From a virus: 32,773 bases of DNA. The stretch covers positions 1 to 32,773 of the IMG/VR virus record IMGVR_UViG_3300025138_000184; one strand, 5' to 3'. Positions 2,777-20,814 of the stretch are shown in pieces. The notes beneath the pieces were generated by a model. That model was not told the DNA's origin and searched no databases. It was given only the letters and a program-made list of their open reading frames with translations. The position numbers and the translations under genes were made by a program. Position 1 is the first letter of the stretch. The number at the start of each line of letters is the position of its first letter.

Positions 2777-3589
2777 ATGGCAAATACAATCGACACAGCC
2801 TTTATTAAGCAGTTTGAATCTGAAGTTCATATGGCTTACCAAAGAATGGGATCAAAGCTACGGAACACAGTTCGCACAGTAAGCAATGTTGCAGGAAGCG
2901 TTGTTCGTTTCCAAAAGATTGGTACTGGTTCTGCTTCAACAAAGTCTAGAAACGGTATGGTAACTCCAATGGATTTAGCACATACCACAGTAGAAGCTAC
3001 AATGTCTGACTTCTATGCAGCTGAGTATATCGATAAGTTAGATGAACTCAAAACAAACATAGATGAAAGACAAGCTGTTGCAAAATCTGCTGCTGCTGCT
3101 CTAGGTCGGAAGACCGATGAGATACTTGTAACTGCAATGGATGCAGGTGCTAACTCTACTCAAATACATGACACAAGTTCTGCTGTTGAAAAAGCTGACT
3201 TGCTTTCTGTCTTTGAAACATTTGGCACTGCGAATCTACCAGAAGACGGTGGACGATACATTGCTATGCACCCAAAAGGGTTTGCTGATTTATTCTCAAT
3301 CACTGAATTTGCTTCTAGTGATTTTGTTGGTGAGCAAAACCTACCTTACGCAGGTGGGATGACAATGAAACAATTCTTAGGTTTCAATATATTCTCAACC
3401 TCTGCAATCGCAGCAGGTAAGAGTTTGTGTTATCATACTTCTGCTGTTGGTTTAGGAGTTGGTGCAGATGTTAGTACGGAACTTAATTATGTTCCTGAGA
3501 AAGTTTCTCACCTTGCAACCTCAATGATGTCCATGGGTTCTGTTGTTATAGATGACAACGGTATCTATGAGCTTCTTGATAATAACTAA
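2777..3589 (+). CDS. Major capsid protein
   Basis: The 270-aa product resembles the short HK97-fold capsid proteins common in marine phages (Phage_capsid_2-type; assignment from memory). It begins MANTIDTAFIKQFESEV and has a Val/Arg-rich E-loop-like region at residues 30-65. The segment at residues 80-120 is the usual helix-rich 'spine' (DELKTNIDERQAVAKSAAAALGRKTDEIL), and a beta-rich A-domain follows. It lies downstream of portal and scaffold and just before the decoration protein. The 82-nt gap upstream carries a purine-rich AAAAGGGG ribosome site about 9 nt from the ATG; no promoter stood out there. Length is slightly short against T7 gp10A (about 345 aa) but normal for this type. Confidence 0.88.
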   Translation: MANTIDTAFIKQFESEVHMAYQRMGSKLRNTVRTVSNVAGSVVRFQKIGTGSASTKSRNGMVTPMDLAHTTVEATMSDFYAAEYIDKLDELKTNIDERQAVAKSAAAALGRKTDEILVTAMDAGANSTQIHDTSSAVEKADLLSVFETFGTANLPEDGGRYIAMHPKGFADLFSITEFASSDFVGEQNLPYAGGMTMKQFLGFNIFSTSAIAAGKSLCYHTSAVGLGVGADVSTELNYVPEKVSHLATSMMSMGSVVIDDNGIYELLDNN

Positions 3590-3603: not shown

Positions 3604-3873
3604 ATGGCTTATGCAGCAAGTGGATTACACCTTATTGGTGGAGCATCAGGACAAAGGCTTTGGTATTATGTTTCTACAGATACTATTGCTGACGCAAACA
3701 CAGCAGGTTATTTTAATGATGCAGCAAATATGCTGAACTTAAATGACTTAATCATTACGGTAACATCTACAGGTGGAACACCTGTTATTACCCATGCTTA
3801 TGTGAATGCAAATAACGGCTCTGTAGTTGATATAACGAACGGTGTTGTTGTTACAAATACTGATGGCGATTAA
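3604..3873 (+). CDS. Head decoration / minor capsid protein, 89 aa
   Basis: Small, beta-rich, neutral protein right after the capsid gene, with a good ribosome site (AGGAGG) 6 nt before ATG. It starts MAYAASGLHLIGGASGQRLW, the style of small proteins that follow Phage_capsid_2-type capsids in marine phages. A TxTGGTPVITHAYVNAN stretch at about residues 55-72 looks like beta hairpins. Such proteins are commonly annotated as head decoration, fibre or unknown. Position and composition make a capsid surface protein likely; there is no catalytic motif. The stop codon is fused to the next gene's ribosome site (TAAAGGAG). Confidence 0.7.
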   Translation: MAYAASGLHLIGGASGQRLWYYVSTDTIADANTAGYFNDAANMLNLNDLIITVTSTGGTPVITHAYVNANNGSVVDITNGVVVTNTDGD

Positions 3874-3908
3874 AGGAGTGGGGGGTTAATAGCCCCCCAT
3901 TTATTAAA
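3872..3908 (+). promoter_or_regulatory. Hairpin between Shine-Dalgarno and start of tail tubular A gene
   Basis: A strong ribosome site AAAGGAG (3872-3878) lies 30 nt from the only credible start, the ATG at 3909. Between them is a hairpin: TGGGGGG (3879-3885) pairs with CCCCCCA (3893-3899) around a 7-nt loop. Removing the hairpin leaves a 9-nt spacing, which is ideal. No other ribosome site lies near the ATG. The hairpin is followed by a weak T-rich stretch (TTTATT), so a leaky terminator or RNase site between capsid and tail genes is the alternative reading. The seven-pair, GC-rich stem is seen directly; its role is inference. Confidence 0.6.
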
Positions 3909-4499
3909 ATGGTAACAAGCACAAAAGCAAACTCACCAGTAGACATAGCAAGTCGAGCATTGATTCTTATCGGTGCTGAACCTATAACATCCTTTGGTGA
4001 TGGCACAACTGAATCTTTGATTACGTCAAACCTCTATGAAGACATTGCACAGACAGCTTTAGTTAATGCTCGTTGGAGATTTGCTACCAATCAAAGTGTT
4101 TTAAATTTACTTACAGATGCACCCACTGGTCGATACGATAAAGCGTATCAGTTACCTACAGATACATTAATGGTTCATGCCGTTACTATAAATGATAACG
4201 TAGTTGATTATCAAATCTATGGGGATAAAATATATGCCGACACTACAGATAATGATATTGTTATTGCTGATTATTCATATCGTGCAAATGAGGTTGATTG
4301 GCCTTCATACTTTTCACTAGCTGTTGAGTATGCACTGGCTGTACCTTTATCTTTTTCTTTAGCAAGGGATGCAAGTCTTGGCTCTCTTATGCAACAACAA
4401 GCGACTGCACTCATGGCAAAAGCACGAAGTATTGATTCTCAACAACAAACATCACGCAAATTAATTACTTCTAGGTTTCTTACAAATAGGAGAAGTTAG
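3909..4499 (+). CDS. Tail tubular protein A (T7 gp11-like adaptor)
   Basis: Adaptor ring between portal and tail nozzle. The 196-aa product has the family signature: an N-terminal helix VDIASRALILIGAEPITSF (residues 11-29), then a second helix with NLYEDIAQTALVNARWRFA. A WRFA / LPTDTL pair follows, and a C-terminal helix AVEYALAVPLSFSLARDASL matches the length of T7 gp11 (196 aa). The initiation region is unusual: a hairpin separates the ribosome site from the ATG. The stop codon overlaps the GTG start of the next gene by one base, as expected for the gp11-gp12 pair. Confidence 0.9.
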   Translation: MVTSTKANSPVDIASRALILIGAEPITSFGDGTTESLITSNLYEDIAQTALVNARWRFATNQSVLNLLTDAPTGRYDKAYQLPTDTLMVHAVTINDNVVDYQIYGDKIYADTTDNDIVIADYSYRANEVDWPSYFSLAVEYALAVPLSFSLARDASLGSLMQQQATALMAKARSIDSQQQTSRKLITSRFLTNRRS

Positions 4500-15030: not shown

Positions 15031-18000
15031 ATGACAATAAGCACATCAGATAACACCCCCCGAATATCGTATTCAGTATCAGAAGGGGCAAGTCAATCAT
15101 CTTTCGCAGTACCATTTGAATTTTTTGCAGATGCAGATTTAAATGTTTATCTTGATGGTACTCTCAAAACAATCTCTACGCACTACTCAGTATCAGGTGG
15201 ATCAGGAACTACTGGCTCTATATCAATGTCGGTTACTGGTGCAAGTGGTGGATCAACTGTAATTATTACCAGAGGCATAGCTTTAGATAGAACAACTGAC
15301 TTTCCAACATCAGGTTCGTTTGCCATTGGTACATTAAACACTGAGCTTGATAGATTTGTAGCTATACAAGCTGACCTCAACGATACCATTACACGTTCTG
15401 TTCGTTTGCAAGATGAAGATACAGCCGTAAGTATGGAGTTGCCGTTGAAGGCTGATCGTGTTGGAGCAGTGTTAGGCTTTAATGCAAGCACTGGTGCAGC
15501 AGAAGCAGGTCCAAAAATTACAGCTGTCCAATCTTTATCAGGAATAACAACATCTGTTAATTTATTAGGTACAGCAGCCGTCGTAGAAGACATGGGCTTA
15601 CTGGCTACATCCGCAGTTATTGAGGATATGGGGTTATTAGCTACGTCAGCTAACGTCACAGCTATGGGATTGCTTGGAGTAAGCGGTGTTATAACCGACA
15701 TGGGGATTTTAGGTACAGCAGCTATAGTAGAAGATATGGGGATTCTCGGTACATCTGCGAATGTAACCGCCATGGGTCTTCTCGGTACAGCAGCCGTTGT
15801 TGAGGACATGGGACTGTTGAGTGCTTCTGCCGTTATTACTGATATGGATTTATTAGCAACGAGTGCAAACGTAACGGCAATGGGAGTGCTAGGTACATCT
15901 GCGAATGTAACAGCGATGGCTGCATTAAGTGCTTCAGCAGTCGTAGCAGATATGGCTTTATTAGGAACAACAGATGTAATTGCAGATATGGCTTTGCTTG
16001 CCAATTCGGATGTAATATCTGACCTAAATACACTAGCGACATCTGACATTGTTTCTGACTTAAACACACTTGCTACTTCTGATATTGTAAGCGACATAAA
16101 TACACTGGCAACAAGCGATATTGTAAGTGACTTAAACACGTTAGCTACATCTGATATTGTAACTGATATTAATTTATTGGCAACATCTGCGATTGTTGAA
16201 GATTTAAATTTATTGGCTACATCTGATGTAATTGCTGACATGGCTGCCCTCGCAGGGTCAGGTGCAAACCCAAATATAACATCTGTTACTGCAAGCGGTG
16301 CAATAACAGCAGGGTCATTTGTAATAGGCAGTGCTGACATCAATGAAAATGATTTGGAATCAATAGACGGTATTACAGCAGGTACAATAGCAGCCAGTAA
16401 AGCAGCAGTCGTAGATGCTAACAAAGACATAACTGGATTTAGAAATATAACTCTTACAGGTGAGCTAGATGCAGGGTCGCTTGATATATCTGGCGATATA
16501 GACGTAGACGGTACAGCCAACCTAGACGTAGTGGACATTGATGGTGCTGTAAACATGGCAACGACTGCCCTCGTAACAGGCGTCCTGACCACCACGGCTG
16601 CAACTGTGTTTAATGGTGGGTTTGCTGCTAATGATGGTTCAACAATTACAACTGCTGATAACACTGCACAGCTTACACTTATATCTACAGATGCAGATGC
16701 AAACGCAGGTCCTAACTTACGAATGCAAAGAGATTCTGCAAGTCCTGCTGATAATGACTTATTAGGTAAAATTACTTTTGTTGGAGATGATGATGGTGGT
16801 AACGAAGTTGATTTTGCAACTATTAATATAAGAGCAAAAGATGTTAGTGATGGTGGTGAGGATGGAGAATTTGATATTAGCACAATGGTTGCAGGAACTT
16901 CTCGTTCAAGAATAAGACTAGATGGTACAGAAACTATTTTTAATGAAAACTCTGTAGACGTAGACTTCCGTGTTGAGTCAAACAATTTTACTCATGCTTT
17001 GTTTGTGCAAGGGTCTGATGGGAATGTGGGTATAAACAAATCAGTTCCTGTCGCCCCTTTACACGTTGTAAGTTCTGATAATCAGAGTGGAAAAATTAGG
17101 CTTGGTGGAGATGGTACGTATTATTCAGAGCTTTTTTGGCATTATTCTGCAAGTATATTGGAGATAAACACTGTCGGTGCGGGTCAAATTGTTTTTTCTA
17201 CAGGTAATAATGCAGAAGCCGTGCGTATCGACAGCAGCGGTGACGTACTTATAAGTAAGACGAGCGTAGATACAACAACAGATGGTCTTGTTCTGCGGGA
17301 GCGTGGTCAAGTTTATGCTACGAGCGACGGCAATACCCCAGTAATTCTGAATAGGAAAAGTTCAGACGGCGACATTGTTCAGGTCCGCAAAGACAACACC
17401 ACGGTGGGGAGTATTGGGACATTAGGCAACCGTATGTCCGTAGGCACTGGTGATGTAGGCTTGTTCTTCAATGACCAAACAGACCAAATACAGCCAATTA
17501 ATACCACTACTAATGCACCTCGTGATAACGCAATAACTCTGGGAGCCACAGATAGACGTTTCCTAAACCTCTACCTCTCAGGCGGTGTTTTTCTTGGCGG
17601 TACTGGTGACGCAAATAAGTTGGACGACTATGAAGAAGGTCTACATACAGCCACACTAACAATGGGTTCTGGTACGGCTGCTTTAAGTTCAAATAGAATG
17701 GGCTACATAAAAACTGGAGCGAGTGTAACTGTTTTTGGCGAACTTGTTGTTGGTTCTATTTCAAGTCCTTCTGGTGGAACAAAATTAAGTTTACCTTTCG
17801 CAACAGCAGTTGCAACAGCAGGTCAAACAGGTAACAGAGAGCATTTTGCAGGAACAGCTATTGTGTCGTACAACACACCTTTTTCTGCAAATAATGCTCC
17901 AGTTTTATTAGCTAACGAACACAATGTAGCAAGTTGTCAAATAGTTTATATGGCAGATGACAGTGGGTTTAGTGCATATACTCCTGCTACAGGAGATACT

Positions 18001-18036
18001 TTTTACATAAGTTTTACTTATTTTACATCAGTTTAA
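15031..18036 (+). CDS. Tail fibre with T7-type N-terminus and 12-residue repeats
   Basis: Host-binding fibre. Residues 1-150 match the T7 gp17 attachment domain style (PRISYSVSEGASQSSFAVPF, then TVIITRGIALDRTTDF, then RSVRLQDEDT). Residues 178-405 are nineteen 12-residue repeats of the type LLATSAxVxDMG. A beta-rich shaft follows at about 410-620, with SGDIDVDGTANLDVVDIDG. Next comes a segment with GNVGINKSVP and SGDVLISK, like fibres of cyanophages and other marine phages. The C-terminal tip starts at the common NKLDDYEEG motif (about residue 864). The bases around 16485-16600 and 17210-17620 use more C- and G-ending codons than neighbouring genes, suggesting exchanged modules. There is no obvious intramolecular chaperone. 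Confidence 0.92.
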   Translation: MTISTSDNTPRISYSVSEGASQSSFAVPFEFFADADLNVYLDGTLKTISTHYSVSGGSGTTGSISMSVTGASGGSTVIITRGIALDRTTDFPTSGSFAIGTLNTELDRFVAIQADLNDTITRSVRLQDEDTAVSMELPLKADRVGAVLGFNASTGAAEAGPKITAVQSLSGITTSVNLLGTAAVVEDMGLLATSAVIEDMGLLATSANVTAMGLLGVSGVITDMGILGTAAIVEDMGILGTSANVTAMGLLGTAAVVEDMGLLSASAVITDMDLLATSANVTAMGVLGTSANVTAMAALSASAVVADMALLGTTDVIADMALLANSDVISDLNTLATSDIVSDLNTLATSDIVSDINTLATSDIVSDLNTLATSDIVTDINLLATSAIVEDLNLLATSDVIADMAALAGSGANPNITSVTASGAITAGSFVIGSADINENDLESIDGITAGTIAASKAAVVDANKDITGFRNITLTGELDAGSLDISGDIDVDGTANLDVVDIDGAVNMATTALVTGVLTTTAATVFNGGFAANDGSTITTADNTAQLTLISTDADANAGPNLRMQRDSASPADNDLLGKITFVGDDDGGNEVDFATINIRAKDVSDGGEDGEFDISTMVAGTSRSRIRLDGTETIFNENSVDVDFRVESNNFTHALFVQGSDGNVGINKSVPVAPLHVVSSDNQSGKIRLGGDGTYYSELFWHYSASILEINTVGAGQIVFSTGNNAEAVRIDSSGDVLISKTSVDTTTDGLVLRERGQVYATSDGNTPVILNRKSSDGDIVQVRKDNTTVGSIGTLGNRMSVGTGDVGLFFNDQTDQIQPINTTTNAPRDNAITLGATDRRFLNLYLSGGVFLGGTGDANKLDDYEEGLHTATLTMGSGTAALSSNRMGYIKTGASVTVFGELVVGSISSPSGGTKLSLPFATAVATAGQTGNREHFAGTAIVSYNTPFSANNAPVLLANEHNVASCQIVYMADDSGFSAYTPATGDTFYISFTYFTSV
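15562..16245 (+). repeat. 36-bp repeats in the tail fibre gene (19 copies)
   Basis: Nineteen tandem units of 36 bp, each coding 12 residues, run without interruption and end in a partial twentieth (ALAGSGAN). Unit classes recur in order: GTAAVVEDMG, ATSAVIEDMG and ATSANVTAMG in the first half, ATSDIVSDLN in the second. The DNA of the units differs mostly at synonymous sites, so the array is old or under selection for protein sequence. Units TLATSDIVSDLN/TLATSDIVSDIN (copies 14-17) are the most alike and could be a recent expansion. Confidence 0.9.
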
Positions 18037-20619: not shown

Positions 20620-20814
20620 TTAGCTAGAAACCACCGACTTGAGCTTTGGGTTGCTCCGTCGGTGGTTTTTAAATTCTTTATATGTCATTGTATATTGTGC
20701 AGTCGGGTGAGATATATATTCATTATAAGAATTTTTAAATATGTTATTCATTTTTACTCTGTTCTTACCTTTTGCAGAGTTTAATTCACGACTTATTTTA
20801 TTATGATATTTCAT
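20620..20814 (-). CDS. Hypothetical 64-aa basic protein, last gene of the - strand block
   Basis: ATG at 20814 has a good ribosome site (GGAG at 20825-20822, 7-nt spacing), which argues that it is real. The product is basic and Asn/Lys/Tyr-rich (KYHNKISRELNSAKGKNRVK), soluble, with no known domain. Two things are odd. A probable terminator with an 8-T run lies just before its ribosome site. Its last 18 codons (NHRRSNPKLKSVVSS region) are written in the shared late-operon terminator. It may therefore be expressed only by read-through. Function unknown. Confidence 0.55.
   Translation of the reverse strand: MKYHNKISRELNSAKGKNRVKMNNIFKNSYNEYISHPTAQYTMTYKEFKNHRRSNPKLKSVVSS
20628..20670 (+). terminator. 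Intrinsic terminator after the late operon
   Basis: AAACCACCGAC (20628-20638) pairs perfectly with GTCGGTGGTTT (20658-20668) over 11 bp. The loop contains a second short pair (GAGC/GCTC), and TT then AAATTC follow. It lies between the end of the + strand late block and the end of the - strand early block. An A-rich sequence on the left arm gives a U-run for the opposite direction too, so it may act on both strands. It is embedded in the last codons of the 64-aa - strand gene. Confidence 0.85.

Follow-up and report, generated by a model that had tools for sequence, protein, structure and literature searches.

A conserved hairpin as the likely bridge within a split ribosome binding site at the head-to-tail gene junction of a marine phage family

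In a virus record of 32.8 kb, the tail tubular A gene very likely starts from a split ribosome binding site, in which a hairpin would serve as a structural spacer between the Shine-Dalgarno sequence (SD) and the ATG. This reading draws on sequence comparison among relatives, which indicates that the hairpin is conserved, that its pairs covary, that the spacing through the folded hairpin is held and that the SD changes sides at larger hairpin-ATG distances. Judged from these sequences, the bridged tail-gene start looks like a family-wide version, in a large marine phage family, of a trick known from a few genes.

Results

Layout of the junction

In the window, that is, the whole stretch of 32,773 nt analysed here, the head-to-tail junction on the plus strand reads TAAAGGAG-TGGGGGG-TTAATAG-CCCCCCA-TTTATTAAA-ATG and has the following features:

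2777..3589, plus strand: major capsid protein (MCP) gene (Pfam Phage_capsid_2, phrog_3437)
3604..3873, plus strand: 89-aa upstream gene (phrog_18004), whose stop TAA at 3871-3873 overlaps the SD
3872..3878, plus strand: SD AAAGGAG, the only SD open to the tail tubular A start
3879..3885, plus strand: 5′ arm of the putative bridging stem, UGGGGGG
3886..3892, plus strand: hairpin loop UUAAUAG, with two more inner pairs possible
3893..3899, plus strand: 3′ arm of the putative bridging stem, CCCCCCA
3900..3908, plus strand: stem-to-ATG spacer UUUAUUAAA, 9 nt and A/U-rich, possibly the remnant of a U-tract (judged from its sequence and the tail composition of its class)
3909..4499, plus strand: tail tubular A-like (adaptor) gene, ATG at 3909-3911 (Pfam Tube PF17212, phrog_394)

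On re-reading the sequence, the coordinates and counts in an earlier note for AAAGGAG (3872-3878), the stem-loop and the ATG (3909) are correct: the end of the SD lies 30 nt from the ATG, the stem-loop at 3879-3899 takes up 21 nt and 9 nt remain. What that note called a 7-bp G/C stem does have 7 bp around a 7-nt loop, but is composed of six G-C pairs and one outer U-A pair. AAAGGAG was rightly taken as the sole SD for tail tubular A, with an upstream SD energy of -6.2 kcal and no SD downstream of the hairpin. Another start codon with a closer SD was rejected, as the stretch from the preceding in-frame stop to 3909 has no other in-frame ATG, GTG or TTG.

Folding of the hairpin

The core stem of the window has an energy of -13.2 kcal and a stem probability of 0.9998 (computed within the identical locus L001). 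Stem probability exceeds 0.9 in 90/90 window-type junctions. RNAfold extends the window stem to 12 bp (3876-3902; z = -3.2 against shuffles) by weak outer G-U and A-U pairs that overlap the GGAG. Part of the GGAG is thereby paired with UUU and the SD has an unpaired probability of ~0.4; such pairing could mean weaker rather than better initiation.

We scanned all ATG, GTG and TTG on both strands for an SD of at most -3.5 kcal, a hairpin of at most -10 kcal and a folded spacing of 3-11. A single site in 3,577 passes, and it is the start at 3909. Within the family, 84% of the tail tubular A genes have a fold of -10 kcal or lower in the 40 nt 5′ of the start, compared to 0% of the MCP genes, 2% of the 89-aa genes and 0% of the tail tubular B genes. 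A chance arrangement is rejected on these grounds, with one passing site among the start-like sites and neighbouring genes that are without leader hairpins. The junction has no Rfam match in the seven loci searched (E <= 0.5).

Three arrangements among relatives

Protein-based scans of IMG/VR and of isolated phages gave ~400 loci with 179 distinct junction sequences. The hairpin is kept in 178 of these 179 head-to-tail junctions, the exception being Vibrio ZCVPP1 (L162), whose hairpin-free junction of 8 nt has an SD-like GGTGA close by. Stemless relatives with an equally long SD-ATG spacing, which the earlier note had named as evidence against bridging, were looked for and none was found among the 179. 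The hairpins vary widely in sequence, in stem (about 5-12 bp) and in loop (UUCG, GAAA, GCAA, UUAAUAG or long). For example, L234 has an intact hairpin with the stem GGGAGAGGC/GCTTCTCCC and one G-U pair, and differs from L233 by one double change (by eye).

Most junctions follow one of two layouts. In type A (90 distinct junctions, including the window), the SD stands directly 5′ of the hairpin, the hairpin lies 6-12 nt from the ATG and nothing SD-like follows it. In type B (52 distinct junctions), the hairpin lies 18-28 nt from the ATG and is followed by a pyrimidine-rich tail and then by an ordinary SD; in four with an insert, this distance is ~60 nt. A third group of 35, mostly from the pelagiphage Hodr branch, has a clear SD on neither side of the hairpin.

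In a few type B phages (L243, L329, L331, L350, L362 and L407; for example L407 8290-8345, minus strand), the hairpin and its downstream SD are set apart by a rare structured insert of ~40 nt (CCCCC..TTGGYTAGGRYTYGCACTGCGATAGGGGG). Its pattern occurs in six contigs only in IMG/VR and has no Rfam match.

In the Hodr branch (L159 2938-3000; L244-L317), tail tubular A has no SD, and the MCP and 89-aa genes at these loci have strong SDs. The persistence of the hairpin there without an SD means that it has, or had, another role.

Spacing is held through the folded hairpin

Across the 90 distinct type A junctions, the unfolded SD-ATG distance is 29.7 ± 5.5 nt (range 22-45). With the hairpin removed, it becomes 6.9 ± 1.8, and 6.9 ± 1.0 for strong SDs (n = 33). 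These values match the SD spacing of ordinary genes at the same loci, namely 6.9 ± 1.1 for the 89-aa gene and 6.1 ± 0.9 for MCP. The aligned spacing in the window with the hairpin folded is 8, within the normal range of these controls, in keeping with the earlier note, which took the 9 nt left by folding as the optimal spacing.

The same note had suggested looking for a constant distance after folding in relatives, and we found one that is nearly constant over hairpin lengths of 16-38 nt. Hairpin length predicts the unfolded SD-ATG distance with a slope of 0.97 (r 0.95). When hairpin lengths were swapped among sequences (20,000 trials), the standard deviation of the spacing rose to 7.7, with a minimum of 5.9. 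Counting each distinct hairpin sequence once (66) leaves the folded spacing at 7.0 ± 1.9.

Type A tail tubular A starts have nil SD at -20 to -1 (median 0.0 kcal). Their upstream SDs have a mean of -4.46 kcal compared to -3.36 ± 0.21 in letter-shuffled segments (0/100 shuffles).

The stem covaries

Covariation was scored on the base pair just outside the G/C block, a pair not used in locating the block; this pair was chosen because MAFFT columns slipped in G/C runs. Of 56 distinct type A sequences, 43 have a Watson-Crick pair there compared to 22.2 ± 3.5 with partners shuffled, and the 43 comprise 21 A-T, 17 T-A and 5 C-G pairs. Compensatory changes of the kind anticipated for relatives are therefore present. 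Members with long stems also show inner-stem changes, for example GGGGAAGGT/ACCTTCCCC and GGGGAGGT/ACCTCCCC.

The SD relocates with the hairpin

The distance between hairpin and ATG is bimodal, either 6-13 nt or 18 nt and more. Splitting the junctions by this distance alone, the upstream SD is at -4.4 kcal in the near class compared to -0.9 kcal in the far class (p = 6e-17). Among near rows, 77 have the upstream SD only; among far rows, 45 have the downstream SD only and one has neither. The cases off the pattern are nine near rows with no clear SD on either side and seven far rows with SDs on both sides.

On the tail tubular A protein tree, the arrangement changes ~6 times outside the Hodr branch. 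For example, the bridged L072 and L060, which has a downstream SD, are 92% identical in tail tubular A, and their junctions read TAATAGGAG[TGGGGGCTTCGGCCCCCA]TACTTTTATATG (L072) and TAATAGAGT[GGGGGCTTTTGCCCCC]CTCTTTTCATAGGGGTTTATAATG (L060). A second pair of opposite arrangement, L047 and L052, is 89% identical in tail tubular A. A sign test on tree-independent pairs is not significant owing to the relatedness of the sequences and the small number of independent switches (4-6), with only four pairs on well-supported branches.

We also considered that the stem might serve in processing the abundant head mRNA or in stabilising its 3′ end. That the hairpin is kept in every arrangement, even without any SD, agrees with such a role; nonetheless this account leaves both the constant folded spacing and the SD relocation unexplained and the stem is short (mostly 6-12 bp), which makes it very unlikely.

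Terminator character of the hairpin

The hairpin of the window has a G/C-rich stem and is flagged as terminator-like. The window genome contains two other hairpins for comparison:

20628..20671, plus strand: textbook terminator AAACCACCGAC...GTCGGTGGTTTTT, situated downstream of the late genes
27331-27306, minus strand: second terminator with a clear U-tract

These true terminators have U5 or longer. The tail after the junction stem of the window is AUUUAUUAAA, and type A tails have a mean of 3.2 U in 8, some having 0-1. Overall, U makes up 40% and A 35% of type A tails, against a U background of 25% in control leaders; in type B tails, U accounts for 56% and pyrimidines for 92%. Stems of the near type are nevertheless more stable (-15.9 kcal) than those of the far type (-12.4 kcal).

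At the same junction, distant phages carry textbook intrinsic terminators (a stem with U5-U8) followed by an SD; these are Vibrio 1.138.O (L412), Vibrio CKB-S2 (L415), Yersinia YeP5 (L161) and MT838907 (L163). In Acinetobacter phage TPWB-05 (L413, 309-392), a terminator-like hairpin CCCCGAAG...CTTCGGGGTTTTCTT abuts the ATG of a tail protein with no SD between.

The hairpin could be only an intrinsic terminator or attenuator between head and tail genes, with the position of the SD incidental. The four distant relatives with their own SD after a textbook terminator, the U-rich tails of the far type and the terminator-like flag of the window hairpin all fit this. Nonetheless it predicts neither a constant folded spacing nor SD relocation, and near-type tails with almost no U in some members (AACCACAC) accompany the more stable stems, so we regard it as improbable. 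The terminator alternative raised in the earlier note stands in part, as history, for a true terminator is present at this junction in distant relatives, but little of its U-tract character is left in window-type tails.

More plausible, though we hold it only tentatively, is a dual use in which partial termination cuts tail mRNA and the SD is bridged on read-through RNA; it extends rather than excludes bridging. It fits all the results found for bridging, the position is common to terminators, tail U is above background (0.40 vs 0.25) and the window tail contains UUUAUU. The poor U-tracts in many near-type members speak against it. Residual termination at the window hairpin is possible.

Outside the structural genes, no window ORF is long enough for a single-subunit phage RNA polymerase, and the host polymerase is therefore the likely reader of the genes of the window. 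The host polymerase obeys intrinsic terminators. At 15031-18036, the window has a tail-fibre-like ORF with many short repeats of the LLATSDIVSDLNT type. Owing to these repeats, a 600-aa antisense frame (15183-16985) stays open as well; it is most likely no gene.

Returning to bridging, a head/tail terminator has probably been put to new use in the window hairpin, which would bridge the ribosome site in the manner of T4 genes 25 and 38. The simplest history would be that the terminator lost its U-tract and turned into a bridge once an SD stood before it. This direction of change, from terminator to bridge, is only inferred because the root of the tree is uncertain.

The upstream gene and its stop codon

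Neither the sequence nor the fold of the 89-aa product matches a PDB entry; its AlphaFold model has a pLDDT of 88, and the best viral matches are uncharacterised phage homologues. These searches lend no support to the earlier note's label of decoration protein, and a ratio of decoration protein to adaptor set by the hairpin would be hypothetical. The bridged layout also occurs where the 89-aa gene is not found and the MCP stop lies directly 5′ of the hairpin (for example in L047, L072 and L035). With the upstream stop only a few nt 5′ of the stem, ribosomes that terminate there might cover the 5′ arm and compete with folding.

This proximity also bears on termination-reinitiation, in which the hairpin would bring the ATG to ~14 nt from the stop and the SD would only assist. 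The stop overlaps or shortly precedes the SD, and the stop-to-ATG distance of type A after folding is 14.3 ± 2.4, as this reading would have it. For strong SDs, however, the SD-ATG distance is the tighter one (sd 1.0 vs 2.8 for stop-ATG, p = 0.04), a difference that weakly separates SD bridging from reinitiation, and the layout is the same whether the upstream gene is the 89-aa gene or MCP. We consider reinitiation unlikely.

Discussion

In the mechanism that we propose, the 30S subunit would pair with AAAGGAG, which adjoins and overlaps the stop of the upstream head gene. With the 21-nt hairpin folded and looped out, the SD-AUG distance would shrink from ~30 to ~9 nt and tail tubular A would be initiated, the 30S presumably accommodating the folded hairpin. 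The low-copy tail adaptor may in this way be made at a moderated level compared with the products of the head genes. The hairpin would descend from the head/tail intrinsic terminator of distant relatives and may still end some transcripts.

Split ribosome sites are so far a handful of single genes. In T4 genes 25 and 38, the SD lies 27 and 22 nt from the AUG and a stem shortens this distance to 11 and 5 nt, respectively; the gene 25 stem is conserved in close T-even phages (PMC3014915). The change from 27 to 11 nt bears out gene 25 as the precedent cited in the earlier note for a structure that joins ribosome site and start (PMC3014915). The window family shares with these two genes the distant SD, the intervening stem that restores spacing and the setting in phage structural genes. 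Unlike them, it comprises more than 60 distinct hairpin sequences of 16-38 nt, which share a common folded spacing throughout a broad family; bridged and downstream-SD arrangements take turns on its tree, and its hairpin stands at the head/tail terminator site.

At the split site of E. coli thrS (Sacerdot et al., cited in PMC3936740), the ribosome accommodates a long folded hairpin in its binding region. The window family likewise has a long folded hairpin inside the ribosome binding region. The thrS site is an autoregulated operator divided by a larger multi-domain leader, whereas the window family is without a known regulator. Searching the literature for other hairpin-bridged phage sites, we found only the T4 and thrS cases.

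T7 T-phi is an intrinsic terminator between capsid and tail genes. The window hairpin shares its gene junction and its G/C hairpin, and distant relatives also have a U-rich tail after the stem. Unlike T-phi, the window-type tail is short and A/U-mixed, with an SD before the hairpin and none after.

The family provides a large natural hairpin series with a more than twofold length range and one effective spacing, in which the ribosome measuring through a folded hairpin becomes testable. It is also a likely case of a terminator hairpin taken over for translation. A more speculative version, which we consider possible but less likely than not, is a conversion of the terminator, throughout this family of marine short-tailed phages, into a stem that both attenuates transcription and forms an obligatory SD bridge on read-through mRNA, swappable in evolution with a downstream SD. 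If true, a single stem would control tail-gene output at both the transcriptional and the translational level.

Start-finders that seek an SD within ~15 nt would, given the spacing, call such genes SD-less. Among the records used, a tail tubular A homologue (MW202742.1, L410, 398-964) is labelled major capsid protein, as in several Manatee Spring records, and is probably misannotated. The locus tags of two pelagiphages (OQ414635.1 / OQ414636.1; L159, L411) appear swapped, the Hodr record having EXVC032PBaldr and the Baldr record EXVC031PHodr.
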